From Bdellovibrionota bacterium (GTDB taxonomy: Bacteria > Bdellovibrionota > UBA1018 > CAUJDS01), in the NCBI GenBank assembly GCA_963169695.1, contig CAUJDS010000022.1, positions 1-46,971 on the forward strand: a stretch of DNA of 46,971 nucleotides, read 5' to 3'. The position numbers and the translations under genes are program-made. Positions 30,043 to 46,971 of this stretch are shown piece after piece; the first letter of the stretch is position 1; each line of letters begins with the position of its first letter. The notes below the pieces were generated by a model, which searched no databases, was not told where the DNA came from, and worked only from the letters and a program-made list of their open reading frames with translations.

Positions 30043-30053
30043 AACGATTACCC

Positions 30054-30907: not shown

Positions 30908-30915
30908 AGTGATTC

Positions 30916-31359
30916 CTACTTATTGCCCCTTTGATCTAAGAGAAAACCCTTATCAAAGACGGTTCGATCGGCCTGACTCATCTCATAAATTGAGCTGAGC
31001 TTGATCGCGTCCTTGGGACATGCTTCCTCACACATTCCACAAAAACAACATCGCAAGACATCAATCTCAAACTTAATGGGATACTTTTCTTTGTCCGAAC
31101 GCTCACCCGCCTCAATATGAATGCACTCTGCAGGACAGACTGTGGGACAAAGCATACAGGCTGTACAATTTTCTACGCCATTTACTGCCTTGATATAGTG
31201 CATTCCTCGATAGCGATCGGAATAAACCCGTCGCTCCTCGGGGAACTGAATGGTCACTTTTTTATCAAAAAGCATCTTACGAAGCGTGATCCAAAGCCCG
31301 GAGATAATCTCCAGTAGGTAATAGGGCTGCAAAAGGCCCTGCTTTTTCTTAATCAGCAT
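30916..31359 (-). CDS. nuoI: NADH-quinone oxidoreductase subunit I (two [4Fe-4S] clusters)
   Basis: 147 residues. Two CxxCxxCxxxCP motifs, at Cys65/68/71/75 and Cys104/107/110/114, bind clusters N6a and N6b, which pass electrons toward NuoB. The N-terminal helix should lie on the membrane. The ATG overlaps the nuoH stop by one base (TGATG). Typical size. Confidence 0.97.
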   Translation of the reverse strand: MLIKKKQGLLQPYYLLEIISGLWITLRKMLFDKKVTIQFPEERRVYSDRYRGMHYIKAVNGVENCTACMLCPTVCPAECIHIEAGERSDKEKYPIKFEIDVLRCCFCGMCEEACPKDAIKLSSIYEMSQADRTVFDKGFLLDQRGNK

Positions 31360-32450
31360 CAGAACATTCCTCGATAAATAAGAAAGGCCGTCAACGCAAC
31401 ATTGAGTAGTGCCAAAGGAAACATGACCTTCCAGCCAAGGTTCATCAGCTGGTCAAATCGAAAGCGGGGAAGCGTCCAGCGTACCCAGACAAAGAACCAG
31501 AGAAAGAATGCCACCTTGGTCATGAAGGAAGCAAACTCTAAACCCACCCGAAGGGCTTCCAATGGAAATCCCGTTAATCCTGAAGCGCCAATCAATCCTG
31601 GTAGCCCTGGCAATAACTGCCAACCACCAAAATAGAGACTTACAATCATGCAACACGCCATGGTCATATTGACGTATTCCGCCAAGAAAAAGAGGGCAAA
31701 TTTCATTGCACCAAATTCCAAATGGAATCCAGCCACAATTTCGGACTCGCCCTCGGGAAGGTCAAACGGAAGCCGATTAGTTTCCGCAAAAACGGCCACC
31801 AAAAAAACCAGAAATCCAAGCGGCTGGATGAAGATCCCATACTTTGGAATCACAACCGGCCCCAGTTGCATTAGGGGTTGGGCCTGGGCCATCACAATGT
31901 CTTGAATCTTGAGACTAGAAAAGGACATCAGGATCCCAATAATAGAAAGTCCCAAACTCAGTTCATAACTGATCATTTGATTAGAACTTCTTAGACTACC
32001 AAAGAGTGCATACTTACTATTAGACGACCATCCCGCCATGATGATGGAATAGACTCCCAAGGAACCAATGGCGAAAATATAAAGAACTCCGACGTCCAAA
32101 TCCGCCAGTTGCAAATGCACCACTTGGCCACTTGGAAGGGTAAGGTTGCTGGCAAATGGCATCGCGGCAAATACCATAAAAGCAGGAATGACAGAGATGA
32201 GTGGTGCCAAATACCAGTAAAAGGTATTGACCATTCCTGGTGGCCGATCTTCCTTAAAAATAAACTTAATCGCATCCGCGAGCGACTGAAGCAGACCCAG
32301 TGGACCAAATCGATTCGGACCGAGACGGTTTTGCATTAACGCCGAACCGCGACGTTCCACCCAAACCATGATCGGTGGAATTTGGAGTAATAGAACGAGC
32401 AGAAATCCCAATTTAATTGCCAACACACCCCAATCAAAAACTTCCATCAC
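31359..32450 (-). CDS. nuoH: NADH-quinone oxidoreductase subunit H
   Basis: 363 residues, eight membrane helices. Contains VERRGSALMQNRLGPNRFGP near the N-terminus, SYEL with the conserved membrane Glu, and the acidic quinone-channel loop AETNRLPFDLPEGESE. These are the elements that couple quinone reduction to the proton pumps. It overlaps nuoG by 4 nt. Confidence 0.97.
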   Translation of the reverse strand: MMEVFDWGVLAIKLGFLLVLLLQIPPIMVWVERRGSALMQNRLGPNRFGPLGLLQSLADAIKFIFKEDRPPGMVNTFYWYLAPLISVIPAFMVFAAMPFASNLTLPSGQVVHLQLADLDVGVLYIFAIGSLGVYSIIMAGWSSNSKYALFGSLRSSNQMISYELSLGLSIIGILMSFSSLKIQDIVMAQAQPLMQLGPVVIPKYGIFIQPLGFLVFLVAVFAETNRLPFDLPEGESEIVAGFHLEFGAMKFALFFLAEYVNMTMACCMIVSLYFGGWQLLPGLPGLIGASGLTGFPLEALRVGLEFASFMTKVAFFLWFFVWVRWTLPRFRFDQLMNLGWKVMFPLALLNVALTAFLIYRGMF

Positions 32451-33871
32451 GCGGCTCCTGATGCGAGAGACTGATTCTTCCAGAGCATGAGCGCCTCAGA
32501 GAGAAGTTTGCTTTCGCCTACCGGAAGGATAGCCCGCACTAAGGTCTGCTCTTTGCCCTGAAAATTGACAACCGTTCCTGTCTTTTCAGCAAAACTTGCC
32601 CCAGGAAAAACGGCCGAAAACTGACCAATCTCTTCCTGCAGAAACACGCCAAATCCAGTGACCTTCAGTGAGCGGTCCAAGCGTGGCAATTCTGCACGTC
32701 CGCCACGAAACACCACCACCTGAGTCTTGCCAGCAGGCAATGTCTGAAAAGGTGCGATGCCTAGTTTTTCAGCTCCATGAAGGTTGGAAGTCTTGCTCTT
32801 GCGTTTCAATAATCCGTCAGAATCTCCGTCACCGTTGGCAGCAGGAAGATTTGGAGTTCCAAAATGGAACACAGGCACTCCTCCCATTTCGGATTTAGCA
32901 AAATGGAGGATCAGCTGAAGCTCTTCTTGGGTTAGATCCGTTCCCACTAAAAACACGGCATCTTTGGATCGAAAACCGCTTTTCCAGCTTGCCATGGTTT
33001 CAAACCAATCTTTTTTGGCCCAGCTATTACCCTCTTGCACCTGTGGGCTCAAGACGCGATCCGGATGATGGATGTATTTGTAATTAAACCTTCCCTCATC
33101 ACAGAGCCAATACCGATTGATCTCCATGTTTTCACGCGGAAGACAGCGGTAGATTTGATTGCGCTCCTCGTGGATTTCCATATTGCATCCGCGAGAACAT
33201 CCTTCGCAAACCGTAGGTGTCTTCTTGAGGTACCAAACGCGCTTATTGAAACGAAAGTCTTTCAATGTCAAAGATCCCGTTGGACAAATATCCGCATAGT
33301 TTCCGGCGTAATCTGTCTCAAGGGCTTTTCCGTCCACGGTGGTGATGTCGACATTGTTTCCACGGTGAATGGCAACCATTTCTCGAATGTTGGCGACTTC
33401 ATCTCCAAATCGAATGCAGCGAGTACAATGAATGCAACGATTCATGTTTTTCTTAATGACTGGGCCCATGTCCAAGTCAACATAGGTTCGGCGCTCTTCT
33501 GTCGATCGCTGGTAAGCACTTCCATGATCGTAAGAATGATCCTGAAGATCGCACTCCCCAGATTTGTCACAAATCGGACAATCCAGTGGATGATTCACAA
33601 GCAAGAACTCCATAACCGATTCTCTGGCCTGCTTTACTCGATCCGTCTTTGTGCTAACCACCATTCCCTCGACGGCCTTGGTGGAACATGCCGTTTGGAT
33701 TTTTGGCATCTTCTCAACATCCACGGCACACATCCGGCATTGAGCGACGACAGAAAGGCCAGGGTGATAACAAAAAACTGGAACCGAGATCCCAGCCCGC
33801 TTTGCGGCCTCGACTAAATTATCACCGTCACGAAATTCTACTTTGATCCCATCAATGGTACAGCTTGGCAT
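32447..33871 (-). CDS. nuoG: NADH-quinone oxidoreductase subunit G (short form)
   Basis: 474 residues, shorter than the roughly 680-900 usual for NuoG. All Fe-S ligands in the N-terminal part are visible: [2Fe-2S] N1b at Cys34/45/48/62, N5 at His94/Cys98/101/107, N4 at Cys146/149/152/196, and the extra N7 motif CxxCxxxCx27C at Cys222/225/229/257. The C-terminal molybdopterin-oxidoreductase-like domain is reduced to about 200 residues, so this protein keeps the electron path but not the vestigial large domain. It starts 2 nt after nuoF. Confidence 0.93.
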   Translation of the reverse strand: MPSCTIDGIKVEFRDGDNLVEAAKRAGISVPVFCYHPGLSVVAQCRMCAVDVEKMPKIQTACSTKAVEGMVVSTKTDRVKQARESVMEFLLVNHPLDCPICDKSGECDLQDHSYDHGSAYQRSTEERRTYVDLDMGPVIKKNMNRCIHCTRCIRFGDEVANIREMVAIHRGNNVDITTVDGKALETDYAGNYADICPTGSLTLKDFRFNKRVWYLKKTPTVCEGCSRGCNMEIHEERNQIYRCLPRENMEINRYWLCDEGRFNYKYIHHPDRVLSPQVQEGNSWAKKDWFETMASWKSGFRSKDAVFLVGTDLTQEELQLILHFAKSEMGGVPVFHFGTPNLPAANGDGDSDGLLKRKSKTSNLHGAEKLGIAPFQTLPAGKTQVVVFRGGRAELPRLDRSLKVTGFGVFLQEEIGQFSAVFPGASFAEKTGTVVNFQGKEQTLVRAILPVGESKLLSEALMLWKNQSLASGAA

Positions 33872-33873
33872 AA

Positions 33874-35148
33874 CTACCCTCTAATCCTCGCTTCAAAGTC
33901 TGAACGAAATTTGGTTACGAAACTTTTCACGGGGCCCGCAGCCGCATCACCCAAAGCGCAAAGCGTCTTTTGGTTGATGTTGTTGGCGATGTCTAACAGG
34001 AGATCTAGATCTTCCAAGCGCCCTTTTCCATCCAGAATGCGCTTGAAAATATTGGCCATCCATCGGCAACCTTCTCGACAGGGCGTGCATTGACCACAAG
34101 ACTCATGTTCGTAGAACTTAGTGATTCGGTAGATCAATCGCACGAGATCGCATCCATCATGGATCACCATGACTCCAGCAGAACCCAACATGCTACCGAT
34201 CTTCATCAATGGATCAATGTCCAATACGACATCGATTTCATCTGGCGTCAATACGGGGGCTGACGAACCTCCAGGAATAACTGCTCGGAGTTTGCGGTCA
34301 TCAAGAATTCCACCACAATAATCGTAGATCAACTCTCGCAGTGTCACGGCCCCCGCAGGCAACTCATACAATCCAGGCTTCTTCACGTGACCGGATACGC
34401 AGAACAGTCGGGTGCCACCAGAATTAGGTAGCTTACCTAACTTGGCGTACCACTCTCCGCCTCGCTGAAGGATGAATGGCACAGCACAAAGTGTTTCCAC
34501 ATTATTAACAACGGTTGGAGAACCAAAGGCTCCCCACGTCGCTGGAAATGGCGGCTTCACTCGTGGTTCGCCCCGCTTTCCTTCTAAAGAATTCAAAAGG
34601 CCCGTCTCTTCGCCACAGATGTAGGCGCCCGCTCCACGATGAACGGTAAGATCAAACTGAAACCCCGAGCCCTGAATATTCGAACCCAAATAGCCAGCTT
34701 GCCTTGCCTCTTCTAGCGCAAGGTCCAAAAGCTTGGCTTCTCTTGCATATTCTCCACGAATATAAATATACCCGTGCTTGGCGCCAATGGCATAAGCGGC
34801 AATGACCATTCCTTCAATAAGCAAATGGGGGGTATACCGCATGAGATCGCGGTCTTTGAAGGTTCCTGGTTCAGATTCATCGGCATTGCAGACCAAATAC
34901 TTTGGTTTGTCGCTCGTCTTTGGAATGAAGCTCCACTTCACGCCAGAGGGAAACCCCGCTCCGCCTCTTCCGCGCAAATTAGACTTCTTAACTTCGTCAA
35001 TCACCTGATCGGGCTTCAAGGCAAAGGCTTTTTTCAAAGCGGAATAGCCATTCATCTGCTTCAGGTAGTACTGCAACCCACGAGCTTCTTCGTTTCCAAA
35101 ATGCTGTATATAAAGCGTTTCACTTCCAGCGTGAGCCGACAACGCCAT
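33874..35148 (-). CDS. nuoF: NADH-quinone oxidoreductase subunit F
   Basis: 424 residues. The NADH/FMN site is clear: [13 protein letters not shown] at 60-72, followed by the [12 protein letters not shown] segment. The N3 [4Fe-4S] ligands are Cys351/354/357 ([12 protein letters not shown]) and Cys397. It oxidises NADH and feeds the Fe-S chain. Starts 1 nt after nuoE. Normal length. Confidence 0.97.
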
Positions 35149-35149
35149 T

Positions 35150-35626
35150 TTACTTCTCCAATCGATCTAAGATCTCGCCGAGACTCTCAGTATCTAAATT
35201 TTCGTGATAATCATCGCCAAGCATCATTGCAGGAGCTGTCCCACACGCGCCCAGACACTCTTCTTCATTGAGGGTGAATTTTCGATCTGCCGTGGTTTCT
35301 CCGCAGCGGACACCAAGACGTTTTTCGCAATATTCGACTAACTCATCCGCTCCCATCAATGAGCAGGCAACATTGGTACAAATTTTCAGGTGATGCTTTC
35401 CGACGGGCTTCAGATTGTACATCGTGTAGAAACTAGCTACTTCACGAACCTGTGCCGGATGAATATCAATATAAATTCCGATTTCATCCAAAACCTCTGG
35501 TGGCAACCAACCGTACTCTTCTTGAGCACGATGCAAAGCTGGCAGAAGCAGAGCGACCTTCGTTGGATAGTGGGGCTCCAACTTCTTCATGTCCTGATAA
35601 AAACCGTCCGAAAGATGCTTACTCAT
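35150..35626 (-). CDS. nuoE: NADH-quinone oxidoreductase subunit E
   Basis: 158 residues with the thioredoxin-like [2Fe-2S] ligand set Cys83, Cys88, Cys124 and Cys128 (CTNVAC...CLGAC) for cluster N1a. Partner of NuoF in the NADH-oxidising module. The start overlaps the nuoD stop by one base. Confidence 0.96.
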
Positions 35627-36900
35627 TAGCGATCTAATTCTCCTGCAATTACATTGATGCTTCCCAATGCGGCCACCATATCACCCAATAGCTTTCCTTC
35701 GACCATGGGGACAAGACCTTGATAGTGCCACACAGAAGGTCCTCGAATTCTCATTCGATGAGATCGCGAACCGCCCTTACTACTAATAAAGAAGCCCAAC
35801 TCACCGTTGCTTGCCTCAAAGGTGGTGTAAGCCTCTCCTGCCGGCACCCGAAACCCTTCCATGAAAAATTTGAAGTGGTGAATCATGCCTTCCATCGTGT
35901 TGTAGACAACTTCTTTATCTGGAATTCGAGTCCGCTTGTCTTCTGACCAAATAGGGCCTTTTTTAATCTTTTCTGCACACTGAATGACAATGTTGAGGGA
36001 CTGCCTAATCTCTTCCATTCGAACGAGGTAGCGATCGTAGCAATCGCCATTCTGGGCAATAGGAACATCAAATTGCACGTCCCGATAGAACATACTGGGC
36101 TGATCGCGTCGTAGATCCACATCAATGCCAGCTGCGCGAGCATTGGGACCTGAGTAGCTAAACTCTAAACACTGCTCCTTATTGAAGACGCCAACTCCGA
36201 CGGTTCTCTTACACCAAATTTTATTTGACGTGAGGAGTTGGTCCATCTCCTCAATAACCTTCAAAGTCTTTTTCGCCCACGCCTTTGCTTCTTTTTCCCA
36301 ACCCTCAGGCGCATCGTGCATGAGGCCGCCAATGCGACAGTAAGACGTTGTCAGTCGAGCACCACAAAGTTTCTCGATTAAGGTGTAGGCCTCCTCGCGT
36401 TGATGAAAACCATAGAGGAAGAAGGTAAAGGCTCCCAGATCAACTGCCGAAATTCCAACGCAGATCAAATGATCAATGACGCGTGATATTTCACAGCACA
36501 TCATTCGAATCCACTGGGCACGCATTGGGAGCTCAACCCCCATGAGGCGCTCTACGGCCATAGCGTAGGTCATGTTATTGGTAAGCGCAGAACAATAGTT
36601 AAGTCGATCCGTATAAACAATGAATTGGTGATAGGTGCGATTCTCGCCGAGTTTCTCTTTGGCTCGATGGGTATAACCAAACTCGGCATAGCTTTTCTCG
36701 ATAACTTCTCCATTGAGTTTAGCCACCAATCGAAGTGCACCGTGCATAGCGGGATGGGTAGGACCTATATTGACGATCATGCGAGATTCTTCCCAAAGAT
36801 CGTCCGGATCGTGCTCCACCGTTACATCATAAGAACCAGGGATTCCCTGCCTCAAAAGATCCTTCGGGATTTGGTCTACGCTGAATGTCTTATTTTCCAT
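35626..36900 (-). CDS. nuoD: NADH-quinone oxidoreductase subunit D
   Basis: 424 residues. The quinone headgroup residues are all present: second His of GPTHPAMHG, Tyr of TDRLNYCS, and Asp of AVDLGAFTFF. The conserved C-terminal ending GELDR is also seen. It forms the quinone site with NuoB and NuoH. One oddity is HRAKEKL where HRGxEKL is usual. It is the reference for the divergent NuoD paralogue at 45706-46842. Gap to nuoC 28 nt. Confidence 0.96.
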   Translation of the reverse strand: MENKTFSVDQIPKDLLRQGIPGSYDVTVEHDPDDLWEESRMIVNIGPTHPAMHGALRLVAKLNGEVIEKSYAEFGYTHRAKEKLGENRTYHQFIVYTDRLNYCSALTNNMTYAMAVERLMGVELPMRAQWIRMMCCEISRVIDHLICVGISAVDLGAFTFFLYGFHQREEAYTLIEKLCGARLTTSYCRIGGLMHDAPEGWEKEAKAWAKKTLKVIEEMDQLLTSNKIWCKRTVGVGVFNKEQCLEFSYSGPNARAAGIDVDLRRDQPSMFYRDVQFDVPIAQNGDCYDRYLVRMEEIRQSLNIVIQCAEKIKKGPIWSEDKRTRIPDKEVVYNTMEGMIHHFKFFMEGFRVPAGEAYTTFEASNGELGFFISSKGGSRSHRMRIRGPSVWHYQGLVPMVEGKLLGDMVAALGSINVIAGELDR

Positions 36901-36928
36901 TCTGGATCCTTGTCCTGTTCTTTTTCGT

Positions 36929-37498
36929 CTATTTCAATAAATCTTCGTTGGGAACCTGAGGCGTTGGAAAAATCTGGTACCCGCGCAGTGGGTAGTCTTT
37001 TCGAAGAGGATGACCTTCCCATCTTTCATCCATCAAAATTCTACGCAAATCGGGATGACCATCAAATTTAATACCAAACATGTCCCAGATTTCTCGCTCA
37101 GCCCAGTTGGCACCCGGCCAAACATCAACCGCGGTGGGCACTGACTCGCCATCCTCTACTTTGACCTTTAGTCGAATACGATTGAACCGCGTGTGCGAAA
37201 ATAGCTGATAAACTACGACAAAACGGGGTCGCTCTGGCATTTCATCTGTCGCAGTAATGTCTGCGAGAAAGTTATATTCAAAGCCCGGATCCGATTTCAA
37301 AAATCTCAAAACCTCTACGATCTCACTTCGCAAAACCCAAACCACTGGGACATCCGTCAAGGCTTCACCAGGAAAATCGACTCGCTCGATCTTTGATCCC
37401 CATCGCGCACGAAGGGACTCGACCTGAGTTTTCCAAAGGTCTCCAAATTTCTGTAGGTGTTCGCCATAAAGGTTGGGAACGTTCGTTCTTACATCCAA
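36929..37498 (-). CDS. nuoC: NADH-quinone oxidoreductase subunit C
   Basis: 189 residues. The family signature EREIWDMFGIKFDGHPDLRR is clear, followed by GHPLRKDYPLRG. Peripheral-arm structural subunit between NuoD and NuoB/I. Separate from nuoD (no NuoCD fusion). Starts 17 nt after nuoB. Confidence 0.95.
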   Translation of the reverse strand: MDVRTNVPNLYGEHLQKFGDLWKTQVESLRARWGSKIERVDFPGEALTDVPVVWVLRSEIVEVLRFLKSDPGFEYNFLADITATDEMPERPRFVVVYQLFSHTRFNRIRLKVKVEDGESVPTAVDVWPGANWAEREIWDMFGIKFDGHPDLRRILMDERWEGHPLRKDYPLRGYQIFPTPQVPNEDLLK

Positions 37499-37515
37499 AA
37501 GAAATTACCTCGCGT

Positions 37516-38013
37516 TCAAATAGTGATAGTGCCGCGTTCTCTACGCTGGGACTGAGTTTCACCTCGTTGAATCATTTCCTGCAATCGCATCAATCCGTTG
37601 ATCACACCCTCTGGCGCGGGAGGGCAACCAGGCACATAAATATCGACTGGAAGGATTGTGTCGATTCCCTGCGCGACGCTGTAGACATTAAAAATTCCAC
37701 CCGAAGAAGCACAAGCCCCAAAAGACATCACGAATTTGGGATCAGCCATCTGGTCATAAACATTGCGCATCACCGGAGCCATTTTAGAATTGACGATACC
37801 AGCAACGATCAGCAAATCACTCTGCCGAGGAGAAAATCTGACGACCTCTGCTCCAAATCGAGACATGTCATAGTCGGAACAAAGCGTAGCCATCATCTCG
37901 ATGCCGCAGCAGCTGGTTCCGAAGGGGAGGGGCCACACGGAATTCTTCCGAAAATAATTTACGACCGCATCAACCCGAGTTGTGAGGTAGCCTGTTGAAC
38001 CGTCTTTAGCCAT
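37516..38013 (-). CDS. nuoB: NADH-quinone oxidoreductase subunit B
   Basis: 165 residues. The ligands of the terminal [4Fe-4S] cluster N2 are Cys35-Cys36 (tandem), Cys101 (FGACASSGG) and Cys130 (VPGCPP). This cluster reduces quinone. Starts 3 nt after nuoA. Normal length. Confidence 0.97.
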
Positions 38014-38016
38014 TTT

Positions 38017-38376
38017 TTATTCCCACTCCAAGGCGCCTTTGAAATAGATATAGAGATATCCTGCTAACAAGACACCAACAAAAGCTACCATTTCATAAAT
38101 GATAAAAGGACCCGCACTAAGAAAATCTTTGAACACAACCGCCCAAGGATAAAAGAAAACCGTCTCCACATCAAAGAGCAGAAAGAGAATTGCCACGAGA
38201 TAAAACCGAACCGAAATACGTTGCTGAGCATTGCCACTCGTAGGAACGCCGCACTCAAAAGGCTGATCCTTCATGGGGTGCGGTGCTTTTGGACCTAATA
38301 GAGCGGAGACAAGCAATGCGCCGCCACCAACCGCCAAACCAGCCAACAAAAGTAGAACGACAGGCAAATACTCCAT
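38017..38376 (-). CDS. nuoA: NADH-quinone oxidoreductase subunit A
   Basis: 119 residues, three membrane helices, with PFECGVPTSGNAQQRISVRFYLVAILFLLFDVE recognisable as the family core (conserved Cys loop and FDxE helix). First gene of the canonical operon, 52 nt after the end of the second complex I-like set on the same strand, so it may be co-transcribed with it; a TATAAC (38408-38403) could be a -10 box for its own promoter. Confidence 0.95.
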   Translation of the reverse strand: MEYLPVVLLLLAGLAVGGGALLVSALLGPKAPHPMKDQPFECGVPTSGNAQQRISVRFYLVAILFLLFDVETVFFYPWAVVFKDFLSAGPFIIYEMVAFVGVLLAGYLYIYFKGALEWE

Positions 38377-38428: not shown

Positions 38429-39910
38429 CTACCACAAAACCCATTGAATCGAGCTTCGCGTCCACTGAAGGACACTCTCTGCAAAACAAATGAGCAGGGC
38501 CACAGGTACCATAAGGGAAAGTAAAAAAATCCTTCTGAATCGTGATTCGCCGGAATCCGCAGAAACTGAAACTGGCGAATCGGTCCGCTGAGTCAGAACA
38601 AAAGTAATCTTGCCCAGAACGATGATCCAAAGCACCCAAGAGAAAACGGACGCTGCCCCAAGCACGAGCCGATGCTGCTTCACCACCGAATCAAGAAGGG
38701 TGAATTGACTCAAATAGCCAGGACTTGGAGGAAGCCCAAGAAAGCAGGCCAAAAACACAATAAAGCAGAGCGTTTCAATTGGGCGCTTATAGAATATTCC
38801 ACGGAAATCACTCAAGACCGGACTTTGAGTTGCGTCAAAGAGAAAGGAGTAACTAGCAAAAACTCCTGATACAGAAAAAAGAAGCGTCGTCCAATGATAC
38901 ATCGCGGCAGCAAGACTTTGATGATCAAGAACTACGACGCCTAAAAAGGCAAAGCCCATTTGTGAAAGCATCAGGTAGGATAGCGTTCTCTTCAGTGATT
39001 TCTGATGCATGGAGCCAAGAGCCCCAATGAGAACGGTCAGTCCTGCACAGAACGAAAGGATCTCTCCCCAATTCCCAGGAAAAACAAAGTGGGACGCGTC
39101 GGCCGGATCCTTTCCGGCAAATATCACAATGGTGATTCTTAAAAAGTAGGCAACCGCTGTCATCGGAAAAGCCAACGCCAAGTAAGCGGCACTGGGAGTA
39201 GGGGCACCATCAAAAACATCTACCGTCCAAAAATAAAGCGGGAAAATCCCAAGCTGAAATGCGACGGAAGAAAAAAAACAGGCAAAAACAATGAGCAATT
39301 GACCCGAGTCTAGAGGTGTCTGTGCAAGGATGGATTTGATTTCGTAGATATTGAAAGAGCGGGTCGCTTGATACAAAACGGCCGCAGCCAATAAGAAGAA
39401 GAAGGAGGACAAGACTTGGAAGACTAGCAACTTGTAACCAGCCTCGGCAGAGGTAGCTGACTGCCGATCCGCGCCCAATAGAAAGACAGACAAGGCAACA
39501 AAAGCCTGTAAGCTTACAAAAATCAAAAGAAGATCACCCGCGCTGGTTGCTACAAACTGAGTGAGCACCGCCGCAATCAGAAAGATGAACATCTCTCCAT
39601 AGCGCGATGGAGAGATCTCCTTCGAAAAGGAAACAGCAATTACAGTGAGAACTCCTAGAAAAATAAACAGGAAGTGAAAGAAGATTGAAACTCCATCAAT
39701 CAAGATGGTCTTGTCGTATAGACTCTGGCCCAAGAGCGCATAATCAAAAACCAGGCGAACTCCGGCCGTAAAGAGTCCAAGCAATGCTGTCCAGATGACC
39801 AACCGATACTTCTCAGAGGCGTAGGCAGTTTCGGTTATCACCAACCCAATCAGAGTCAAACAAAGGACGATTTCAGGAATAAGTGCGTTCAGAAGATTCA
39901 TGGCCCTCAC
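38429..39910 (-). CDS. nuoN: Divergent NuoN paralogue lacking proton-channel residues
   Basis: 493 residues from a GTG at 39910 whose bases overlap the previous stop (GTGA); an ATG at 39901 is possible. About fourteen membrane helices. It aligns with NuoN (25082-26596) over helix 5, the VDVFDGAPTP loop and the LGLPPSPGYL region, but the channel residues differ: Glu148 to Gln135, Lys233 to Gln219, Lys263 to Pro249, distal Lys to Gln402, and the HTGY His to Gln. Proton pumping by the usual route should be impossible. The frame is intact, so this is a maintained protein, not a broken gene. Last gene of the second module, 52 nt before nuoA. Confidence 0.9.
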   Translation of the reverse strand: MRAMNLLNALIPEIVLCLTLIGLVITETAYASEKYRLVIWTALLGLFTAGVRLVFDYALLGQSLYDKTILIDGVSIFFHFLFIFLGVLTVIAVSFSKEISPSRYGEMFIFLIAAVLTQFVATSAGDLLLIFVSLQAFVALSVFLLGADRQSATSAEAGYKLLVFQVLSSFFFLLAAAVLYQATRSFNIYEIKSILAQTPLDSGQLLIVFACFFSSVAFQLGIFPLYFWTVDVFDGAPTPSAAYLALAFPMTAVAYFLRITIVIFAGKDPADASHFVFPGNWGEILSFCAGLTVLIGALGSMHQKSLKRTLSYLMLSQMGFAFLGVVVLDHQSLAAAMYHWTTLLFSVSGVFASYSFLFDATQSPVLSDFRGIFYKRPIETLCFIVFLACFLGLPPSPGYLSQFTLLDSVVKQHRLVLGAASVFSWVLWIIVLGKITFVLTQRTDSPVSVSADSGESRFRRIFLLSLMVPVALLICFAESVLQWTRSSIQWVLW

Positions 39911-41421
39911 TTCATCATTGAAAGGACCATCGCGACTGAGGGACGAACCAACTCTAAAAGTGGCCTTGGAAAAAATCCCAATACAATAAGACAGAAGACG
40001 ATGGGCAGAATTAAACTCTTTTCTCGGAGTGAGAGATCGAACACCTCTTTTGAATCACTGCCATGAGCTGCACCTAGAAAAATACTTCGATAAACACTAA
40101 AAAATTGATAGCCAATAAGGAAAACCCCAAGTGCAATCATCGTCATGGGAAGTGGATAAGACGAATAGCTGCCCATCATTATAAGTGATTGCCCAATGAA
40201 GCCGCCTAAGCCAGGCAAGCCCAACATTCCCGCGAAGACCAGAGCCGTAAGTAATGCCAAAAATGGTGTGAAGGCGACCCATCCACCGAAATTGGGTTTT
40301 CCTTCGTCGCTAACAAATGCTGAATGCCCCATTCGATCTCGAACAGATCCCACAAAGAACCCAAATCCCGTCAATGCCAAACCTTGGACAAGGAGCTGAT
40401 AGATAGCACCCACTACACCAGCCGAATCTCGAGATCCAAGGCCTACCAACACCACGCCCATCTGGGTCATGGCAGCGTATGCCATCAGCAATCGCAACTC
40501 TCTTTGTGATACCGCCATAAGCGCTCCGAAGATCACATTGATTGCTCCCAAGGCAACAATCACATGAGACCAACGCGAAAACTCGGCTGGGAATAGGGAG
40601 AGTGCCAAACGGGCAAATACCGCTAGCCCAATTGGAGCAGTGATTGCGCTCAATAGGACGAAAAAGGATGCGGGGCTCTGGGTCGCCTGAAATGTAAACC
40701 AGCCATGAAAGGGCCAGAGCGGAAGCCGACAAGCAATACCCATAGAAAGGAGTAAAAAAGCGATCGAAGCAATGGGAACCTGGGATCCAAATAGGTCGAA
40801 GGTGCCATGGATTCGGTCACCCATGAGATCCTTAATTGAAAAGGAATGCGGCTCGACTGAAAAATAAATAATCACCAATGCCATAAGGAACAAAGCGTTT
40901 CCTAGGGCTGACATCGTTATAAATCGAAATGCCGATGCCTCTCGCTCCTGTCCTCCCCATACAGCAAAAAGAAAATACAAAGGAACCGCGGTAAAGGACC
41001 AGAAGAAGACCATCAGGAAAAGGTCCTGAGATACCACGCTGCCTAGAAAGCCAGTCTGAAGAAGCAGAAACAAGCCAAAAACCCCGGGGGCTCCCTGCTT
41101 GCGATTCCACTCGGACAAAACCAAAAGAGGAAAGACGATGGAAATCAAAATAACAAAAAGTACATTGAGACCATCCAGACCTACGTCGTAGGTCATTGCA
41201 TAGGATCCGACCCAGTTAAAAACTTCATTGATTTGGAGGCCAGGTTGATTGCCGTGTAGCGAACTCACCATGACAATTCCAACTAAAGAACTCATCAAAC
41301 TTGCGGTAATTGCTATCCATCGACAAAGGGTTGAACGACCACCCATCAGTGGAGTGACAACTTCTAGGAGAGCACCCAAGAAAGGAATGGCAATCATGAG
41401 TGAAATGAGATGGCTCGACAC
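39907..41421 (-). CDS. nuoM: Divergent NuoM paralogue lacking proton-channel residues
   Basis: 504 residues from a GTG with GGAGATCG upstream. It aligns well with NuoM of the canonical operon (QDLFLMVFFWSFTAVPLYFLFAVWGG against [26 protein letters not shown]). Substitutions at the pump positions: Glu147 to Ser142, Lys236 to Arg232, Lys267 to Pro263, distal Glu to Gln411, and both conserved His (SHMG, LNHG) to Gln. Everything else that shapes the fold remains. It overlaps the following NuoN paralogue by 4 nt and begins 23 nt after the NuoL paralogue. Confidence 0.9.
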   Translation of the reverse strand: MSSHLISLMIAIPFLGALLEVVTPLMGGRSTLCRWIAITASLMSSLVGIVMVSSLHGNQPGLQINEVFNWVGSYAMTYDVGLDGLNVLFVILISIVFPLLVLSEWNRKQGAPGVFGLFLLLQTGFLGSVVSQDLFLMVFFWSFTAVPLYFLFAVWGGQEREASAFRFITMSALGNALFLMALVIIYFSVEPHSFSIKDLMGDRIHGTFDLFGSQVPIASIAFLLLSMGIACRLPLWPFHGWFTFQATQSPASFFVLLSAITAPIGLAVFARLALSLFPAEFSRWSHVIVALGAINVIFGALMAVSQRELRLLMAYAAMTQMGVVLVGLGSRDSAGVVGAIYQLLVQGLALTGFGFFVGSVRDRMGHSAFVSDEGKPNFGGWVAFTPFLALLTALVFAGMLGLPGLGGFIGQSLIMMGSYSSYPLPMTMIALGVFLIGYQFFSVYRSIFLGAAHGSDSKEVFDLSLREKSLILPIVFCLIVLGFFPRPLLELVRPSVAMVLSMMK

Positions 41422-41444
41422 GAATTACGATCTCCCTTCAGGCA

Positions 41445-43379
41445 CTAAAGTAGGGCGCAATAATACCCCAGCAAGACGAGAATAGATGCAGTTGCCATCA
41501 AAACATACCATTGAACGTCTCCATTTTGCACCGCCTGAAGCGTACGAGAACCAAACTGAATAGACTTTCGCGCGGAGGCATCTATAGCCTTCAAAAAACC
41601 AATATCGGACAATTTGATTCCTCGCGACATACTTACGACTGCCTTCAAAACCAAAGCTGGAGCGGCAAAATGAATGAGCTTCTCTGCTAACCAATATTCA
41701 ATGGAGTAGGCTCCCTGAACCAAGAGTCGAAGTCCATTTTGGCCCAACTCATCCAATCGTAGTACTTTTTCACCCCAGGCCCAAAACCTTGGAAATCGTG
41801 CCATTAAAATGGTCCATCGATGCCGAAGCCCATAGGCCACCCCAATCCCGAGAATTAAGCACGTCGCATAATAGCCGGTGGCCCGAATAAACCGGGGATG
41901 ATCCAGAAAGCTTTCAGTGGCTCCTGCAAAATAGGAAAGGATCCATGCCGAACCGACTCGATCAAAATCTCCCCAAAGCAGACCTCCACTGAGTGACCCC
42001 GTCCAGAGCACCGCCAATCCAAGCAGGAACCAGAGAGCGACAATCACATAGGCCCCCTTAGTCCATGTATTCAGTGCGGATCGCTCGAGAGCTTGGATAC
42101 CAACCTTCCAAACCAGCCATACGCTAAGAAAAAACCCAAAAGCCAAAAGTACCAACTCTACTGATACAGCTTGAAGGGATTGAAACAATTCCATCAGTGG
42201 AGCCGTGCCCACAAAACATACGCCACCACTTCCAAGGATAGAACCCAGGATCACAATAAACCGAATTGGCGTGGCACTGACCTTCGTTTCACCCGGTTGT
42301 TCCTTTTCTGAAACGACCCGGCTCAGGATAAGACTCGCCAGAAGCACTCCCGTAAAATACAAGAACGCTTGCCTTGGCCCAGTGGAAAATAGCATGAAGA
42401 GCACCAAGAGATAGCCGCCGCTTATCCAAGCAACAAAAGACTTTACAACCGAGCGCTGAAAAAGACCGATTGTAAAACTAAAAAGTGACAGACTTACCGC
42501 AATAAGGGCTCCAACTTGCCTCAAGCCCACAGCTTCAATGGCTGGCAGCGTTCTCACAAGAAAGCCCAAGAAGAGCGCTCCCTGGAGGTGTTGAAAAATA
42601 AAACTGCGCTGAAGCAATGCCCCTGGAGGCAACTTTCGAATCCAGCCCAGAAAAGGGAAGGGCCTAAATCCGACAAAAATCCCTGCCAGAAAAAGGGCCT
42701 TACCCCAAACTAGGGCATGGGTGACAACTTCGACCTTATAGACATCCAGTCTTTGATACCCACTCGAATCAAAGGCAATGGCCGATCCAGATACCATTAA
42801 GGTCATGGCTAAAAAAATCTCTCGAATGCTTCGCTCAAAGAAATGACTTTCTTCAATATTCTTGGATGACTGACTGACCCCCCAAAAAACCTGCCCAATA
42901 AGGAAGATGCCCAATCCTAAATAAGCCATCCAGATCGTCGCAGAAATCCACACACCAAGGACACCCACGACAGAAATCACGGTGGCTGCACTTGTGAGAG
43001 GACTTACGGGAGCTGACTTCCGATATTCGGACATCGCAAGGAATAAAAAAGTAACCAAGCTAAGGAAGGTGACAAAAAGAATACCCAAAGGATCGATAAA
43101 AAATCCAAATTGAACTTCATTGTGAGATTGGCTGGATTGCCACCAACGGGCCACCTCGACGAATGCGGCCATTCCCCCGACCCACATCCCATGCCACTCA
43201 AAACAGGCAGCCACCAATAAGAGTGCCATGCCCAGAATGGCGCTCCACGGAGAGAAAGCTCGAAACCTCTTGCCACCCAATACTTGCAAAAAAGCAAGCG
43301 CTGCAGCCAGCGCAAAAGCGCCCACAAAAAGTGGGAAATGTTGGATCGACTCAGCAAGTACCATAGGTGACTCGTTCAA
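41445..43379 (-). CDS. nuoL: Highly divergent NuoL paralogue
   Basis: 644 residues, strongly hydrophobic, from a TTG that overlaps the preceding TGA (TTGA) with AAGGA 7 nt upstream. Homology to NuoL is seen at FIDPLGILFVTFLSLVTFLF (against LDALSGLFVLVITGVGTLIH) and in the C-terminus (VQNGDVQWYVLMATASILVL against IQTGSVQSYGVLILLGLVL). At the channel sites the alignment gives Glu152 to Leu, Lys234 to Gly and His259 to Phe; the FSKDE segment is gone. It is the least conserved subunit of the module, but its C-terminal lateral-helix region persists, so it may still clamp the membrane arm. Confidence 0.8.
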   Translation of the reverse strand: MNESPMVLAESIQHFPLFVGAFALAAALAFLQVLGGKRFRAFSPWSAILGMALLLVAACFEWHGMWVGGMAAFVEVARWWQSSQSHNEVQFGFFIDPLGILFVTFLSLVTFLFLAMSEYRKSAPVSPLTSAATVISVVGVLGVWISATIWMAYLGLGIFLIGQVFWGVSQSSKNIEESHFFERSIREIFLAMTLMVSGSAIAFDSSGYQRLDVYKVEVVTHALVWGKALFLAGIFVGFRPFPFLGWIRKLPPGALLQRSFIFQHLQGALFLGFLVRTLPAIEAVGLRQVGALIAVSLSLFSFTIGLFQRSVVKSFVAWISGGYLLVLFMLFSTGPRQAFLYFTGVLLASLILSRVVSEKEQPGETKVSATPIRFIVILGSILGSGGVCFVGTAPLMELFQSLQAVSVELVLLAFGFFLSVWLVWKVGIQALERSALNTWTKGAYVIVALWFLLGLAVLWTGSLSGGLLWGDFDRVGSAWILSYFAGATESFLDHPRFIRATGYYATCLILGIGVAYGLRHRWTILMARFPRFWAWGEKVLRLDELGQNGLRLLVQGAYSIEYWLAEKLIHFAAPALVLKAVVSMSRGIKLSDIGFLKAIDASARKSIQFGSRTLQAVQNGDVQWYVLMATASILVLLGYYCALL

Positions 43380-43672
43380 TTGCGAATCCTTTTCAGATCA
43401 GAAATAGCTACTCTATTGGATCTTTGATAAATTCGCGCAGCTAGCGCGTACGATACGGCTTGATATACGGCGCCGATCGCCAAGATAAAAATACCAAATG
43501 CCAACCCAGGCTCTTGGGATCCTCCTCCATAGGCAATGAAAACGAAGAGACTCGAAAAACCGAAGAACAAAATTTGGGTTCCCACAATAAACCCAATAAA
43601 GCTTTGGGATGATGCAATCCCTACAAAACCCAAAACCGAAAGAATTACCGAAATGAGATAAATCAAAACCAA
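43376..43672 (-). CDS. nuoK: Divergent NuoK paralogue without membrane glutamates
   Basis: 98 residues, three membrane helices like NuoK. The positions of the two pathway glutamates are Gln33 (IVGTQILFFG against MSIELMLNA) and Ala68 (LAIGAVYQA against VAAAESAVG). The only Glu in the protein is residue 54 in a loop. It starts 6 nt after the NuoJ paralogue and overlaps the NuoL paralogue by 4 nt. Size, topology and gene order support the assignment despite low identity. Confidence 0.8.
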   Translation of the reverse strand: MVLIYLISVILSVLGFVGIASSQSFIGFIVGTQILFFGFSSLFVFIAYGGGSQEPGLAFGIFILAIGAVYQAVSYALAARIYQRSNRVAISDLKRIRN

Positions 43673-43678
43673 TCCTCC

Positions 43679-44137
43679 CTACCGACGAGCCAGAACTCCG
43701 ACTCCAATAATCACCACAAAGAGTAAGATCCCCATCAATTCCAATGAAAGAAACTGATGCCCCACAAGGTACTGCCCGAGTTGAACTAATCCCAAGTTAG
43801 AATTAGGCAAAACAGAAAATAGCGCATGGCCAGAAAACCCAAATCCCAGTAGCGCCAAGAATACAAGACCAAGAAGTAGCGATACAATAAACTTCCTAGG
43901 CTCCACTGCTCGAGACTGGTGAGAATGCAGAAAGCCAAAAAAGAAATACAAAACCCCACTTACTGTCACCAATAAAACTTGAATAAACGCCAAGAAATCC
44001 GATCCGATGCTTAAGTAGGTGCAGCCCAACGCTAAGCCGGAAAGCCATAGTAACCAAAATATGGCTCGAGTGGAGCGAGCAATGATCGCACCAAAACTAA
44101 AAACCACCGCCAAACTTCCAAAGAAAAGAACGTCCAT
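43679..44137 (-). CDS. nuoJ: Divergent NuoJ paralogue
   Basis: 152 residues from the ATG at 44137 (7 nt after the NuoI paralogue); the open frame to 44260 overlaps that gene and adds non-homologous residues. About five membrane helices. The third helix reads QVLLVTVSGVLYFFFG against QVLVYAGAVMVLFVFV in NuoJ, so the gating Tyr is Val and the Ala-Gly turn is Thr-Val. Assigned mainly by order (I-J-K) and topology. Confidence 0.72.
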   Translation of the reverse strand: MDVLFFGSLAVVFSFGAIIARSTRAIFWLLWLSGLALGCTYLSIGSDFLAFIQVLLVTVSGVLYFFFGFLHSHQSRAVEPRKFIVSLLLGLVFLALLGFGFSGHALFSVLPNSNLGLVQLGQYLVGHQFLSLELMGILLFVVIIGVGVLARR

Positions 44138-44144
44138 TTCTGAG

Positions 44145-44669
44145 TTATTCCACTTCTTCCATCGGGCGCATTCGCTCCCATTTTTCACGTTGCTCCTTGG
44201 AAACCCAGCCCCGCCCAAATTGACTAAAGAGGTGTTCCCGCTGATAGTGCGCACCCTCATATCGCTTGGTGTGCTTCAGAGACGCTGGCTCACAGACCTC
44301 TACGCAAAGCCCACAAAGAATGCACCTTCCATAATCAATGTCATAAACTGCGACCCACTTCTTTCCTGTGGCTGGCTGATCTTGGACCTCTATGCGAATA
44401 CAATTGGCAGGACAAACAGCGGAACAGTCTCCGCATCCGGTACAGGCATCTACATCATTGAAAAGCATACCGCGGGACTTGACTGGCAAATCATCTTCCG
44501 TTCTGGAAGACACTGGGTCCGGGTACTGCTCGGTGACTTCTTTGCGATGCTCTCCCCATCCAAACAAATACGGCACAACAACCAGCGAGGACTCCAAGAG
44601 CGACCGAAACCCCCAATAGAGGCTTCTCATATAAGCGTAAATATTTCTGAAAATGGACAATGATATCAT
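44145..44669 (-). CDS. nuoI: NuoI paralogue with both [4Fe-4S] motifs kept
   Basis: 174 residues from the ATG at 44669, which overlaps the NuoH paralogue stop (ATGA); the longer frame to 44741 lies inside that gene. Cys76/79/82/86 (CTGCGDCSAVCP) and Cys116/119/122/126 (CILCGLCVEVCE) keep all eight ligands, with Glu in place of the usual Pro after the last Cys. Electron transfer through N6a/N6b should therefore still work. This contrasts with the loss of pump residues in the membrane subunits. Confidence 0.9.
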   Translation of the reverse strand: MISLSIFRNIYAYMRSLYWGFRSLLESSLVVVPYLFGWGEHRKEVTEQYPDPVSSRTEDDLPVKSRGMLFNDVDACTGCGDCSAVCPANCIRIEVQDQPATGKKWVAVYDIDYGRCILCGLCVEVCEPASLKHTKRYEGAHYQREHLFSQFGRGWVSKEQREKWERMRPMEEVE

Positions 44670-45709
44670 CCGTTGCCCCACATTCCCCAAAGCGTTTGTC
44701 CCAAAAGAGAGAGCAAAGACAATGGAACCAAGACACGCCATGAAAAATTGGTGACATGGTCCACTCGTAAGCGAGGACTAACGCGGCTTTGCCAAAAAAG
44801 AAAAACCATCAGTACAAAGGCCTTTACAATGACCAGAATCGCTTCAAGAAAACTCAAGCTCGTCTGCGACGAACTCCCCACTCCATCGCTAGAAAACTCC
44901 GGCAAATTCCAAGCCCCGCCAAAGGCACCCACCGCAAAAACGCACCACATAAAAAGTCCGTAGAAGCGAAAAATTCGGGTAAAAACAAGCGCGCGACCGG
45001 CTATGCCACGATAAACACCGCCGCTCATTTCTTGAGAGCCCACAGCGGCATCCATCGGCGGGAGGTGGAACATAGCTACTCCCGAGAGATAAAAAACAAT
45101 TCCGGCGAGAAACAGAAAGGGGCTGGAAAAAAGTGTCCAGTGATGAAAAGAAAATCCCTGTATCTCAGCGATAGCTTTCCATTGAAAGCTCCCAACATAG
45201 ACTCCCACGCAAAGGATGCTCAACATTGCTGGAAATAGTGCGACGAGAGATTGCGCCGCCATCCGAATTCCACCGATCCAACTCTCGACCCTTCCTAAGG
45301 ACAAGGCCAACCAAAGTTGGCTCAATGAAGCGATTGCAACAAAGACAAGAGGTAAAAGCAAACTAAGCTCAGTATCAAAGAGCAGGAAATAAGACCCGAG
45401 GGGCAACAATGCAGCCGAAGAATAGAGGACCAAGAATCCCACCAGCCACTGAAGGGTATCAGGAAGGTGATGCGTAGTAAGCGGCCGCTTAGCAAGCAAC
45501 TTGATCAGATCAGCCACTCCCTGAAACATACCCCGCGGTCCGACTAAACTGGGACCAATGCGGGCCTGCAAATCAGCAGAAAATTTTCTTTCGACGTAAC
45601 CCATCAACCCATAGAACGGAGCAAAGATTCCAATCCACACGACCGCCAATCGAATCACGCTATCGAGTAAAGAGGCCGCTAAGGTTTCCAAAAGAGACAC
45701 TCCATTCAA
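44666..45709 (-). CDS. nuoH: Divergent NuoH paralogue with altered quinone channel
   Basis: 347 residues, eight likely membrane helices, TTG start overlapping the NuoD stop by 4 nt. The N-terminal signature is conserved (YVERKFSADLQARIGPSLVGP). The quinone-channel parts are not: SYEL becomes VALF, and the acidic loop AETNRLPFDLPEGESE becomes YLSGVAMFHLPPMDAA, losing Glu, Arg and Asp residues used for quinone binding and coupling. It is unlike HycD/MbhM relatives in order and partners. No in-frame defect. Confidence 0.85.
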   Translation of the reverse strand: MNGVSLLETLAASLLDSVIRLAVVWIGIFAPFYGLMGYVERKFSADLQARIGPSLVGPRGMFQGVADLIKLLAKRPLTTHHLPDTLQWLVGFLVLYSSAALLPLGSYFLLFDTELSLLLPLVFVAIASLSQLWLALSLGRVESWIGGIRMAAQSLVALFPAMLSILCVGVYVGSFQWKAIAEIQGFSFHHWTLFSSPFLFLAGIVFYLSGVAMFHLPPMDAAVGSQEMSGGVYRGIAGRALVFTRIFRFYGLFMWCVFAVGAFGGAWNLPEFSSDGVGSSSQTSLSFLEAILVIVKAFVLMVFLFWQSRVSPRLRVDHVTNFSWRVLVPLSLLSLLGQTLWGMWGNG

Positions 45710-46212
45710 CGATCCAATTCCGAAACTGAAATATCAAAGCTGGTCAATATCGTAGCCAAATCTTCTAATTTTTGGCCAACTAAACTCCCTTGTGCAGCCA
45801 GGAGGTTAGAAAAAGAAGGCACTGAAAATTGTACCCTGACCGGCTTTTTCCCTCCGTCCGAAACCAAAAGGCATCCAACGGGTCCTCGAGGACCTTCAAC
45901 AAATTGCATGCTCTCGCCAGCTGGAAGGACGTAACCCTTTGAGATAGTTGGTCCATCAAAGAAACTTCCCGCAGGCAAAAGATCAGCACACTGCTTAATG
46001 ATTTCAATGCTCTCTTGAATTTCCCTTAAGCGCAGCAAGTAACGATCGTGACAATCGCCCTGGACTCCGTATTCTCCCAATCCGAGTGGGACATGGAAGG
46101 GCGTCTGGTCATAGAATGCGTAGGGATTTCTTTTTCGCAGGTCCCAGGCAATACCAGAAGCTCTTGCGGCAGGACCGCCTAGATTAAAATGCAATGCTAC
46201 TACCTTGTCCAA
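45706..46212 (-). pseudogene. nuoD: NuoD paralogue, C-terminal piece after an in-frame TAG
   Basis: 168 residues if restarted at the TTG at 46212. Reading continues in the same frame from the N-terminal piece (46255-46842), with only TAG at 46257-46255 between them; the codons after the TAG read FNYIFQKRTFGIGV, which aligns with NKIWCKRTVGVGV of canonical NuoD. It contains GDCHDRYLLRLREI and ends SVSELDR, where canonical NuoD ends IAGELDR. Either one nonsense mutation, a read-through codon or a sequence error. The stop overlaps the NuoH paralogue start. Confidence 0.7.
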
Positions 46213-46254
46213 AACCCCAATTCCAAAGGTCCGCTTCTGAAAAATATAATTGAA

Positions 46255-46842
46255 CTAATGGAGGTCGTTGTACTCCTTGATTCGAATGGAGATTTTTTCG
46301 CAAGCCTGTAAAACACGCTCCATGAATCCATCCGTCACATCTCCCTTCACTCCTCCAAGACAGAGAAAATGAAAGGTGAAACGTTGGCCAGTCAAGAGCT
46401 CAAAAAGATCCAAAAGCGTTTCGCGATCTCTCAGAATAAAATGAACGGCCGTTGAAGCTCCCACTGAATTTGCCATTTTTGCTAAGAAGCTCAAGGAACA
46501 AGCGATCCTGGTCAACTCCTCCAAAACCTGGCGTATCCAGACAGCACGTGCTGGTGGAGTAATTCTCAATAGCTCTTCTGCAGCCAAACAATAGGCAAGT
46601 TCGTAGGAAGATGCCGATTCGGAATCAATCCGATCAGTCAGCGGCAGGTGAGAAACCCAAGGCAATTCTTCAAAAAGTCTTTCCACTCCGCGATGTGAAT
46701 ATCCCCTGTTAAAGCGGACGCCTTCAATGATTTCGCCATCCAAGTCCAATGCAAATTTCAAGGGGCCTGGCAGTGATGGGTCAAACGGGCCCAGCTCCCA
46801 TTGCGTCCCTTCCTCTGAAGACGTCCTAGGCATTTCCAACAT
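46255..46842 (-). pseudogene. nuoD: NuoD paralogue, N-terminal piece ending at an in-frame TAG
   Basis: 195 residues from the ATG at 46842 (AGAAGG upstream); a GTG at 46902 and an ATG at 46833 are alternatives. Homology: GPFDPSLPGPLKF against GPTHPAMHGALRL, DRIDSESASSYELAYCLAAEEL against DRLNYCSALTNNMTYAMAVERL, and SVGASTAVHFILRDRE against DLGAFTFFLYGFHQRE. Thus the quinone His is Pro, the Tyr is Ser and the Asp is Ser. [NiFe]-type cysteine pairs are absent as well, so it is not a hydrogenase large subunit. The protein would normally run into the C-terminal piece. Confidence 0.72.
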
Positions 46843-46971
46843 TTTGCCGCCTTCTAAAGGGAAAGTCTCGATCCTCTGAGCTAACATAAAAAGTGGATTC
46901 ACTTAGCCGCCCTACAAAGTGAATTCCAAAAAGATCCGAAAATTCCTCTTCGTAAAGAGAAGCCCGCACCC
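46826..46971 (-). CDS. nuoC: NuoC paralogue, C-terminal end (5' part outside window)
   Basis: 47 residues visible, running off the right edge. The family core EEEFSDLFGIHFVGRL is recognisable against EREIWDMFGIKFDGHP, and PFRRRQ against PLRKDY. Together with the NuoD, H-N paralogues this gives the order C-D-H-I-J-K-L-M-N on one strand, so NuoA and NuoB paralogues may lie further right. It overlaps the NuoD paralogue start by 17 nt (or 8 nt with the ATG at 46833). Confidence 0.75.
   Translation of the reverse strand, partial: VRASLYEEEFSDLFGIHFVGRLSESTFYVSSEDRDFPFRRRQNVGNA

Follow-up and report, generated by a model that had tools for sequence, protein, structure and literature searches.

A second complex I-like gene cluster, with its iron-sulfur ligands conserved and its proton axis and quinone ligands lost, is maintained next to canonical nuoA-N

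We analysed a stretch of 46,971 nucleotides (hereafter the window), which is the entire contig C22 of a Bdellovibrionota assembly, and found that the canonical nuoA-N operon (set 1) has directly upstream of it a second complex I-like cluster (set 2) in which the proton axis and the quinone ligands are lost, the iron-sulfur ligands are retained and, in relatives, all subunits are under strong purifying selection. The residues needed for pumping are gone, while the membrane subunits and the Fe-S wiring have been kept, and we therefore propose that set 2 is selected for some non-pumping job. Our tentatively favoured reading is that it may form a membrane-anchored Fe-S complex that derives from an 11-subunit complex I, does not pump and works together with the canonical enzyme.

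Gene content and genomic position of set 2

Within the window, set 2 occupies positions 38429-46971 on the minus strand and, as the first-pass annotation had described, has no E, F or G gene between D and H. NuoE/F/G are missing from every set-2 copy examined, and the only NuoF of this genome is encoded within set 1, whose 14 genes (25082..38376, minus strand) lie 52 bp downstream of the gene for subunit N2 and retain all key residues. The annotation had listed C to N for set 2 and had suggested looking for A and B paralogues beyond the window: the window ends within C2 at the contig end, and the N-terminal part of C2, together with A2 and B2, was located at the end of another contig of the same genome (G000:C3), the two contig ends sharing 16 identical bases in an exact overlap. 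A true truncation with A, B and C missing is thus ruled out in favour of a contig break, and the cluster comprises the 11 genes A2-B2-C2-D2-H2-I2-J2-K2-L2-M2-N2.

All set-2 genes in the window are on the minus strand. The C-terminal part of NuoC-like C2 (46826..46971) was assigned by reading its frame up to the contig end and is followed by NuoD-like D2 (49 kDa subunit; 45706..46902), both halves of which match Pfam Complex1_49kDa. The split is due to a single in-frame TAG (46255..46257), a correction to the earlier description of the set; it was found in no other genome, internal stops being present in 0/37 other set-2 D genes, and probably reflects an assembly error or recent damage. Downstream lie NuoH-like H2 (44666..45709; Pfam NADHdh, 1.2e-44), NuoI-like I2 (44145..44741), which contains two [4Fe-4S] motifs and probably starts near 44669, and NuoJ-like J2 (43679..44137; Pfam Oxidored_q3, 4e-7, below the cut-off), for which the ATG at 44137 is a likelier start than the longest-ORF start at 44260. 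NuoK-like K2 (43376..43672) matches Pfam Oxidored_q2, NuoM-like M2 (39907..41421) scores above the NCBIfam NuoM cut-off, and NuoN-like N2 (38429..39910) completes the set. Between K2 and M2, the 644-aa L2 (41445..43379) is so divergent that neither Pfam nor NCBIfam recognises it; it was identified as NuoL-like from its place in the gene order and from a comparison of its profile with that of NuoL (97.6% probability over 522 columns), with PDB matches to NdhF/ND5. AlphaFold modelling of L2 from an alignment of just three sequences gave a pLDDT of 46.

Proton axis, quinone pocket and iron-sulfur ligands

Substitutions in the window copy were read from a structure-numbered alignment with E. coli. 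For M2 (E144S, K234R, K265P, E407Q, H322Q and H348Q) and N2 (E133Q, K217Q, K247P, K395Q, H305Q and H224Y), the alignment agreed with what had been noted by eye, namely Glu-Ser, Lys-Arg, Lys-Pro, Glu-Gln and two His-Gln changes in M and Glu-Gln, Lys-Gln, Lys-Pro, Lys-Gln and His-Gln changes in N. Both membrane Glu are gone from K2 (E36Q, E72Y); the first exchange stands as reported, while the second, given as Glu-Ala, leads to Tyr in the window copy, and most relatives have Gln at this position. L2 has lost its central proton axis (E144G, K229G, H254F, H338G, K342A), which bears out the reported Lys-Gly and His-Phe changes and replaces the supposed Glu-Leu by Glu-Gly. The E-channel of H2 carries E157L, E216V, E218S and E228G, with R46, D63 and D295 kept, and J2 carries Y59V. 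The alignment restored no Lys or Glu at key sites, in line with the earlier view of a maintained complex I relative without a proton path.

Across about 31 relatives, only one of the 28 axis positions of H, K, L, M and N is kept in set 2, whereas 34 of the 60 conserved charged residues outside the axis are retained (Fisher p ~1e-6). When all conserved charged and His residues were pooled, no excess loss was detected (35/88 kept versus 126/337 other residues, p = 0.7); the selective effect emerges only when axis and non-axis residues are counted apart, a split defined by mechanistic residues known beforehand. This split speaks against a general loss of charge, and the loss of the proton path exceeds chance, the same residues being missing in about 30 relatives.

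The quinone pocket is altered as well. In D2, the counterpart of Thermus Nqo4 His38 is kept in 0/31 copies and replaced in all 31, and that of Tyr87 is kept in four (only family f3 and genome G057) and replaced in 27; the window copy has Pro and Ser, respectively. LPG-P and DPE motifs stand where the quinone-binding HxxxHG and DY would be. Every canonical or 11-subunit D compared has both residues, save for one alignment gap at the His. Beside cluster N2, B2 and D2 carry the clade-fixed changes I66D and H224P. The four Cys in B and eight in I that bind the three Fe-S clusters are nevertheless essentially invariant: the Cys of cluster N2 are kept in 30-31 of 31 copies and the eight Cys of I in 24/24, the window I2 with its previously noted eight cysteines included, and the 11 reduced copies of f6 keep them too, as does f7. 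Set 2 hence has the ligands for N2, N6a and N6b, as complex I does.

Conservation among relatives and origin of set 2

The block of divergently transcribed mfd, set 2 and nuoA-N recurs in relatives across this bacterial class, whose members are uncultivated, so that the gene order seen in the window is indeed shared by related genomes. Canonical nuoA directly follows the gene for N2 in 32/32 loci in which both are visible, mostly within ~120 bp, and among loci with both ends visible set 2 was never found apart from nuoA-N. Outside the class, absence applies to the full-length form as judged with the D2 profile; the B2 profile gives no clean split there between reduced set 2 and canonical B. 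Set-2 frames are intact in dozens of genomes. In an f6 pair, all set-2 subunits, the shrunken L, M and N included, gave dN/dS values of 0.018-0.052, and an f2 pair gave 0.00-0.10. Such values in close pairs indicate that set 2 is not decaying, and the random decay against which the annotation was to be checked gives way to strong purifying selection. Living lineages represent distinct stages, with f3 intermediate, f1/f2 fully stripped and f6 shrunken in its membrane subunits, L and M being down to about 300 aa.

In a FastTree analysis of D+I+B, set 2 groups with 11-subunit sets (0.96 local support), its neighbours being sets from Binatia, Deltaproteobacteria and Spirochaetia and the set L171. 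In the D tree, D2 and D1 fall on opposite sides of a branch with 100/99 support, which rules out a recent duplication of set 1. A native Bdellovibrio-type complex I (split B-C-D-I operon) was also tested and is not favoured, as those D, I and B sequences group elsewhere. Probably E/F/G were already missing from an 11-subunit ancestor and were not lost later. Set 2 resembles 11-subunit complex I-like enzymes (Moparthi-Hagerhall type; NDH-1 and Fpo architecture) in genes, gene order, Fe-S clusters and lack of E/F/G. However, intact 11-subunit sets keep the quinone His and Tyr that set 2 lacks, as did every third set and broad homologue that we checked, and the third set L068 in genome G002 keeps the proton axis save for M K234. 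The adjoining canonical NuoA-N has homologous subunits, whereas set 2 lacks an NADH module of its own, the quinone ligands and the proton axis.

[NiFe] group 4 hydrogenases, FHL, MBH and MBS have a large subunit, an Fe-S chain and a membrane arm, all shared with set 2, and no quinone site. We rejected a hydrogenase-like reading because D2 lacks the metal Cys: it has no nickel-ligand CxxC pairs, an alignment of 22 D2 sequences shows no invariant Cys, and D2 is closer to NuoD/NdhH than it is to MBH or FHL. Rhodobacter sphaeroides likewise has two sets, the phylogenetically distinct and functional complex I isozymes IA and IE (PMC4859585); unlike these, one of the two sets described here appears pump-dead, and they follow each other head to tail within a single gene block. 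In the 2M, green and five-pump variants (Chadwick et al. 2018, cited through PMC9040806), an additional membrane-subunit copy goes with a gain of pumping subunits, whereas set 2 has lost pumping residues. Only the set 2 of G055 and G057 resembles such variants in having two M-like genes; the window set has a single M2 and lacks the second NuoM that marks 2M complex I.

Possible functions of a non-pumping complex I relative

In the reading we favour, set 2 would be co-expressed with the canonical complex I genes that follow, and partnership with that enzyme would be most likely. The 11 subunits would assemble into a complex in which canonical quinone reduction and pumping are both gone and three [4Fe-4S] clusters are held, N6a and N6b in I2 and N2 in B2. 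Either a soluble carrier or the partner complex may deliver electrons one at a time to I2, B2 would hand them to the remodelled pocket between cluster N2 and D2, and the pump-dead membrane arm would serve as anchor and docking surface. As a whole, and without pumping, set 2 would relay or buffer electrons for complex I or act as its sensing partner. Other duplicated redox machines combine active and inactive halves, and we regard it as possible, with rather less confidence, that set 2 is a pseudo-complex I from an ancient 11-subunit form, an obligate heteromeric partner without pump or quinone site that feeds, buffers or gates the electrons of the active enzyme. Conserved gene order is no proof of physical contact between the complexes, and the sensor, partner and electron-branching roles first suggested cannot be told apart from sequence.

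The conserved Cys could be structural only, and set 2 might then be an assembly partner, a pseudo-enzyme with the shape of complex I that joins the canonical enzyme in a heterodimer or scaffold and whose clusters hold the fold but have no part in physiological electron transfer. Strong constraint on all subunits, even the shrunken membrane ones, the fixed position ahead of nuoA-N and the loss of catalytic residues at quinone and proton ends alike would fit this; we consider it rather unlikely, as all 12 Fe-S ligands stay while almost everything else erodes, reduced f6 copies included, and some lineages should have dropped clusters whose role was purely structural. Slightly more doubtful is an independent non-pumping oxidoreductase that would draw on ferredoxin or a different electron donor and deliver to a new acceptor or a newly bound quinone, with no need for canonical complex I. 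Grouping with 11-subunit sets is consistent with it, since Desulfitobacterium hafniense Nuo is such an enzyme and the type is thought to draw electrons from ferredoxin in Desulfitobacterium (PMC11238625), as is the clade-fixed remodelling at cluster N2. However, the block contains no donor or acceptor gene, with mfd lying upstream, no locus with both ends visible has set 2 apart from nuoA-N, and several genomes have an intact 11-subunit enzyme besides set 2.

Far less probable is continued ion pumping by other residues. M Arg234 is fixed in 31/31 set-2 copies, N Lys395 and Arg247 are kept in most relatives, and the less derived f3 copies retain M K265, E407 and His, so that one weak proton path through M Arg234 and N Lys395/Arg247, perhaps with new charges, might conceivably persist. 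Yet the entire central axis of L is missing, K has neither Glu, the E-channel of H is gone, the remaining axis positions vary between families, and L and M of f6 are shortened to about 300 aa. Least credible of all is that set 2 is a relic in neutral decay beside its replacement: its subunits evolve faster than those of set 1, the window D2 carries a stop codon, and f6 has reduced membrane subunits and two genomes in which no set-2 copy was seen, but the low dN/dS, the intact frames and the one position held across families of the class contradict decay for the clade, so that it may apply to the window species, through its D2, alone.

Complex I is usually viewed as a machine that is kept for pumping, and our search of open-licence papers found no description of a pump-dead form. 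In set 2, pump and quinone ligands have been stripped while strong selection still maintains the membrane body and the Fe-S wire. The series from f3 through f1/f2 to f6 may thus offer a natural dissection of the parts of complex I that a non-pumping role needs, and the idea that one complex I could serve a second one as a structural, regulatory or relay partner becomes directly testable.

Gene content and layout of the second cluster

The window spans the entire contig C22 of genome G000 (46,971 bp), on which a normal 14-gene nuoA-N operon (set 1) occupies 25082-38376 on the minus strand. The second complex I-like cluster (set 2, subunits A2 to N2) lies on the same strand, 52 bp upstream of set 1 nuoA. 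Neighbouring set-2 genes overlap or almost touch, with gaps of -76 to +23 bp, and a simple scan around the set 2/set 1 junction found no terminator- or promoter-like site. The apparent absence of A and B from set 2 arises because the contig stops within C2. The NuoA and NuoB paralogues that the first-pass annotation had proposed looking for beyond the window were located on contig C3 of the same genome, which carries A2, B2 (at its extreme end) and the N-terminal part of C2, with a divergent mfd upstream of set 2. The C3 and window ends share 16 identical bases; together with the C3 genes, this match therefore gives set 2 the composition A2-B2-C2-D2-H2-I2-J2-K2-L2-M2-N2. The genome encodes one NuoF.

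The D2 reading frame (46902 to 45706) contains a single in-frame TAG at 46257-46255, a site that in relatives is mainly Thr or Ser within 'NDLFTFN'. D2 of the window aligns with its relatives both before and after this codon. The profile search recovered 37 further set-2 D genes, all of them free of internal stops. The TAG arose by recent mutation or is an error in the assembly.

Elsewhere in the window, positions 1-19700 hold a gene cluster that is apparently for an aryl polyene or flexirubin-type pigment. It encodes ketoacyl synthases, an aromatic amino acid lyase (12525-14114), a halogenase-like flavoprotein, an amine-oxidase-like protein and a glycosyltransferase/lipid A acyltransferase-like fusion protein (3009-5132). 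Immediately downstream of nuoN lies a gene for a 982-aa TPR-repeat protein (22124-25072), followed by seryl-tRNA synthetase.

Distribution and origin

With M2 as query against relatives, most of the order's genomes showed an orthologue of 34-50% identity beside canonical nuo. Canonical nuoA directly follows the nuoN-like gene of set 2 in all 32 loci with both ends visible, mostly within about 120 bp, and in relatives an opposite-strand mfd lies upstream of A2. The same arrangement occurs in family f7 (genome G055) and in G057 (L173), which belongs to a further family of the class, not within the order. Family f6 has a reduced version of it; we read three f6 loci completely, and 11 of 13 f6 genomes possess the B2 and I2 genes. 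A D2 profile recovered full-form D2 in 38 genomes of the order at 420 bits or more and scored at most 395 bits in the remaining sampled genomes of the phylum; the lower-scoring D genes that we inspected have intact quinone residues and lie in a B-C-D-I operon. Two public records carry set 2, JACPOE010000010.1 (labelled 'Bdellovibrio sp.', groundwater) and JAIEMT010000003.1, both metagenome-assembled; judging from these, the phylum is probably Bdellovibrionota.

Several variant arrangements were also seen. In Bdellovibrio-like genomes of other families of the phylum (loci L179-L193), a small nuoB-C-D-I operon stands alone without adjacent H or J-N, and complex I is apparently encoded in split form. 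A third, 11-subunit complex I-like set occurs elsewhere in about ten of the order's genomes (among them L068 in G002, L171 in G045, L172 in G038 and L174 in G017); the key residues of L068 are intact except K234 in M, and the quinone residues of D are intact in all four. L2 and M2 are apparently fused in one 1060-aa frame at L061 5493-8672 (G013). Set 2 of G057 (L173) and of G055 (L199) resembles '2M' complex I in having a pair of M-like genes, both of which have lost the axis residues in G057.

In a tree of D, all set-2 sequences fall on one side of a 100/99 branch, apart from set 1, with those of family f3 and G057 closest to other groups. In a D+I+B tree built by a faster method, set 2 grouped neither with set 1 nor with the Bdellovibrio-type B-C-D-I genes; it grouped (0.96) with 11-subunit sets of Binatia, Deltaproteobacteria and Spirochaetia and the third set of G045. 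These 11-subunit relatives share the gene order of set 2 and lack E/F/G, and the absence of E/F/G is therefore probably ancestral. The pump and quinone site were probably lost later and stepwise: f3 copies retain K265, E407 and both His of M and the Tyr of D, f1/f2 copies have lost nearly everything, and in f6 C2 and a large part of the arm are gone too.

Proton path, quinone site and Fe-S ligands

We compared 25-31 set-2 copies per subunit with 69-89 homologues of many phyla, either canonical or from 11-subunit sets (E. coli numbering). The list of proton-axis residues was drawn up from what was already known of the mechanism (for example PMC9271201). In M2, E144 is never kept, K234 is always Arg, K265 is Pro in 28/31 and E407 is lost; in the N subunit of set 2, E133 is replaced by Gln or Leu, K217 mainly by Gln and K247 by Arg, and K395 is mostly retained. 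Also lost are E144, D178, K229, H254, H334, H338, K342 and K399 of L2, E157, E216, E218 and E228 of H2, and Tyr59 of J2, and E36 and E72 of K2 are mainly Gln. In the comparison homologues these positions are 96-100% conserved. Many conserved charges off the axis are retained, for example D84, D135, R365 and E464 in M, E104, E154, K158 and D229 in N, and R46, D63, K70, K274 and D295 in H2. Overall, set 2 retains 1 of 28 axis residues, compared with 34 of the 60 conserved charged or His residues off the axis (Fisher p about 1e-6). Pooled over all conserved residues, set 2 showed no excess loss of charge, and the loss is therefore site-specific.

The quinone ligands were assessed by aligning D2 to Thermus Nqo4 (2fug chain 4). 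The His38 position is Pro in 24/31 set-2 copies and another residue, never His, in the rest; the Tyr87 position is Pro in 22/31, and Tyr is kept in only four, from G057 and three f3 genomes. Every D sequence from outside set 2 in the comparison carries the His (with one alignment gap) and the Tyr. The four N2-cluster Cys of B2 occur in 30, 31, 31 and 31 of 31 copies and the eight Cys of I2 in 24/24; the Fe-S Cys are likewise kept in the 11 f6 copies and in B2 of f7 and f8. Two clade-fixed substitutions, NuoB I66D and NuoD H224P, adjoin the N2 cluster.

A maintained cluster and probable partner of complex I

For the clade, the idea that set 2 is a decaying relic is contradicted by low dN/dS: 0.00-0.10 for set-2 genes in an f2 pair (L051/L053) and 0.018-0.052 for every set-2 gene in an f6 pair (G005/G014), including the reduced membrane subunits (L 299, M 327 and N 454 aa). 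Canonical genes of the f6 pair gave 0.006-0.055. Mean identity within set 2 is highest for B2 (66%), D2 (62%), I2 (60%) and M2 (59%), and lowest for L2 (32%).

Known variants of complex I include 11-subunit enzymes whose presumed electron donor is ferredoxin (PMC11238625), paired isozymes that are both functional (PMC4859585) and complexes bearing extra pumps (PMC9040806). Set 2 differs from all three in lacking the proton axis and quinone ligands and yet being maintained, a combination of which we found no description in the open-licence literature.

One alternative is that set 2 is an independent reductase. Such a free-standing enzyme fits less well, and we consider it improbable, because the block contains no partner genes, set 2 was not found apart from nuoA-N in any locus with both ends visible, and it is retained even where a third, intact 11-subunit enzyme is present. 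A purely structural partner of complex I is also unlikely, if slightly less so. We tentatively favour a redox partner. The core preserved by selection is the Fe-S wire, D2 with its remodelled pocket, the membrane body and the position before complex I. The best fit to this is a partner of complex I, redox or structural in its role, that would not pump.
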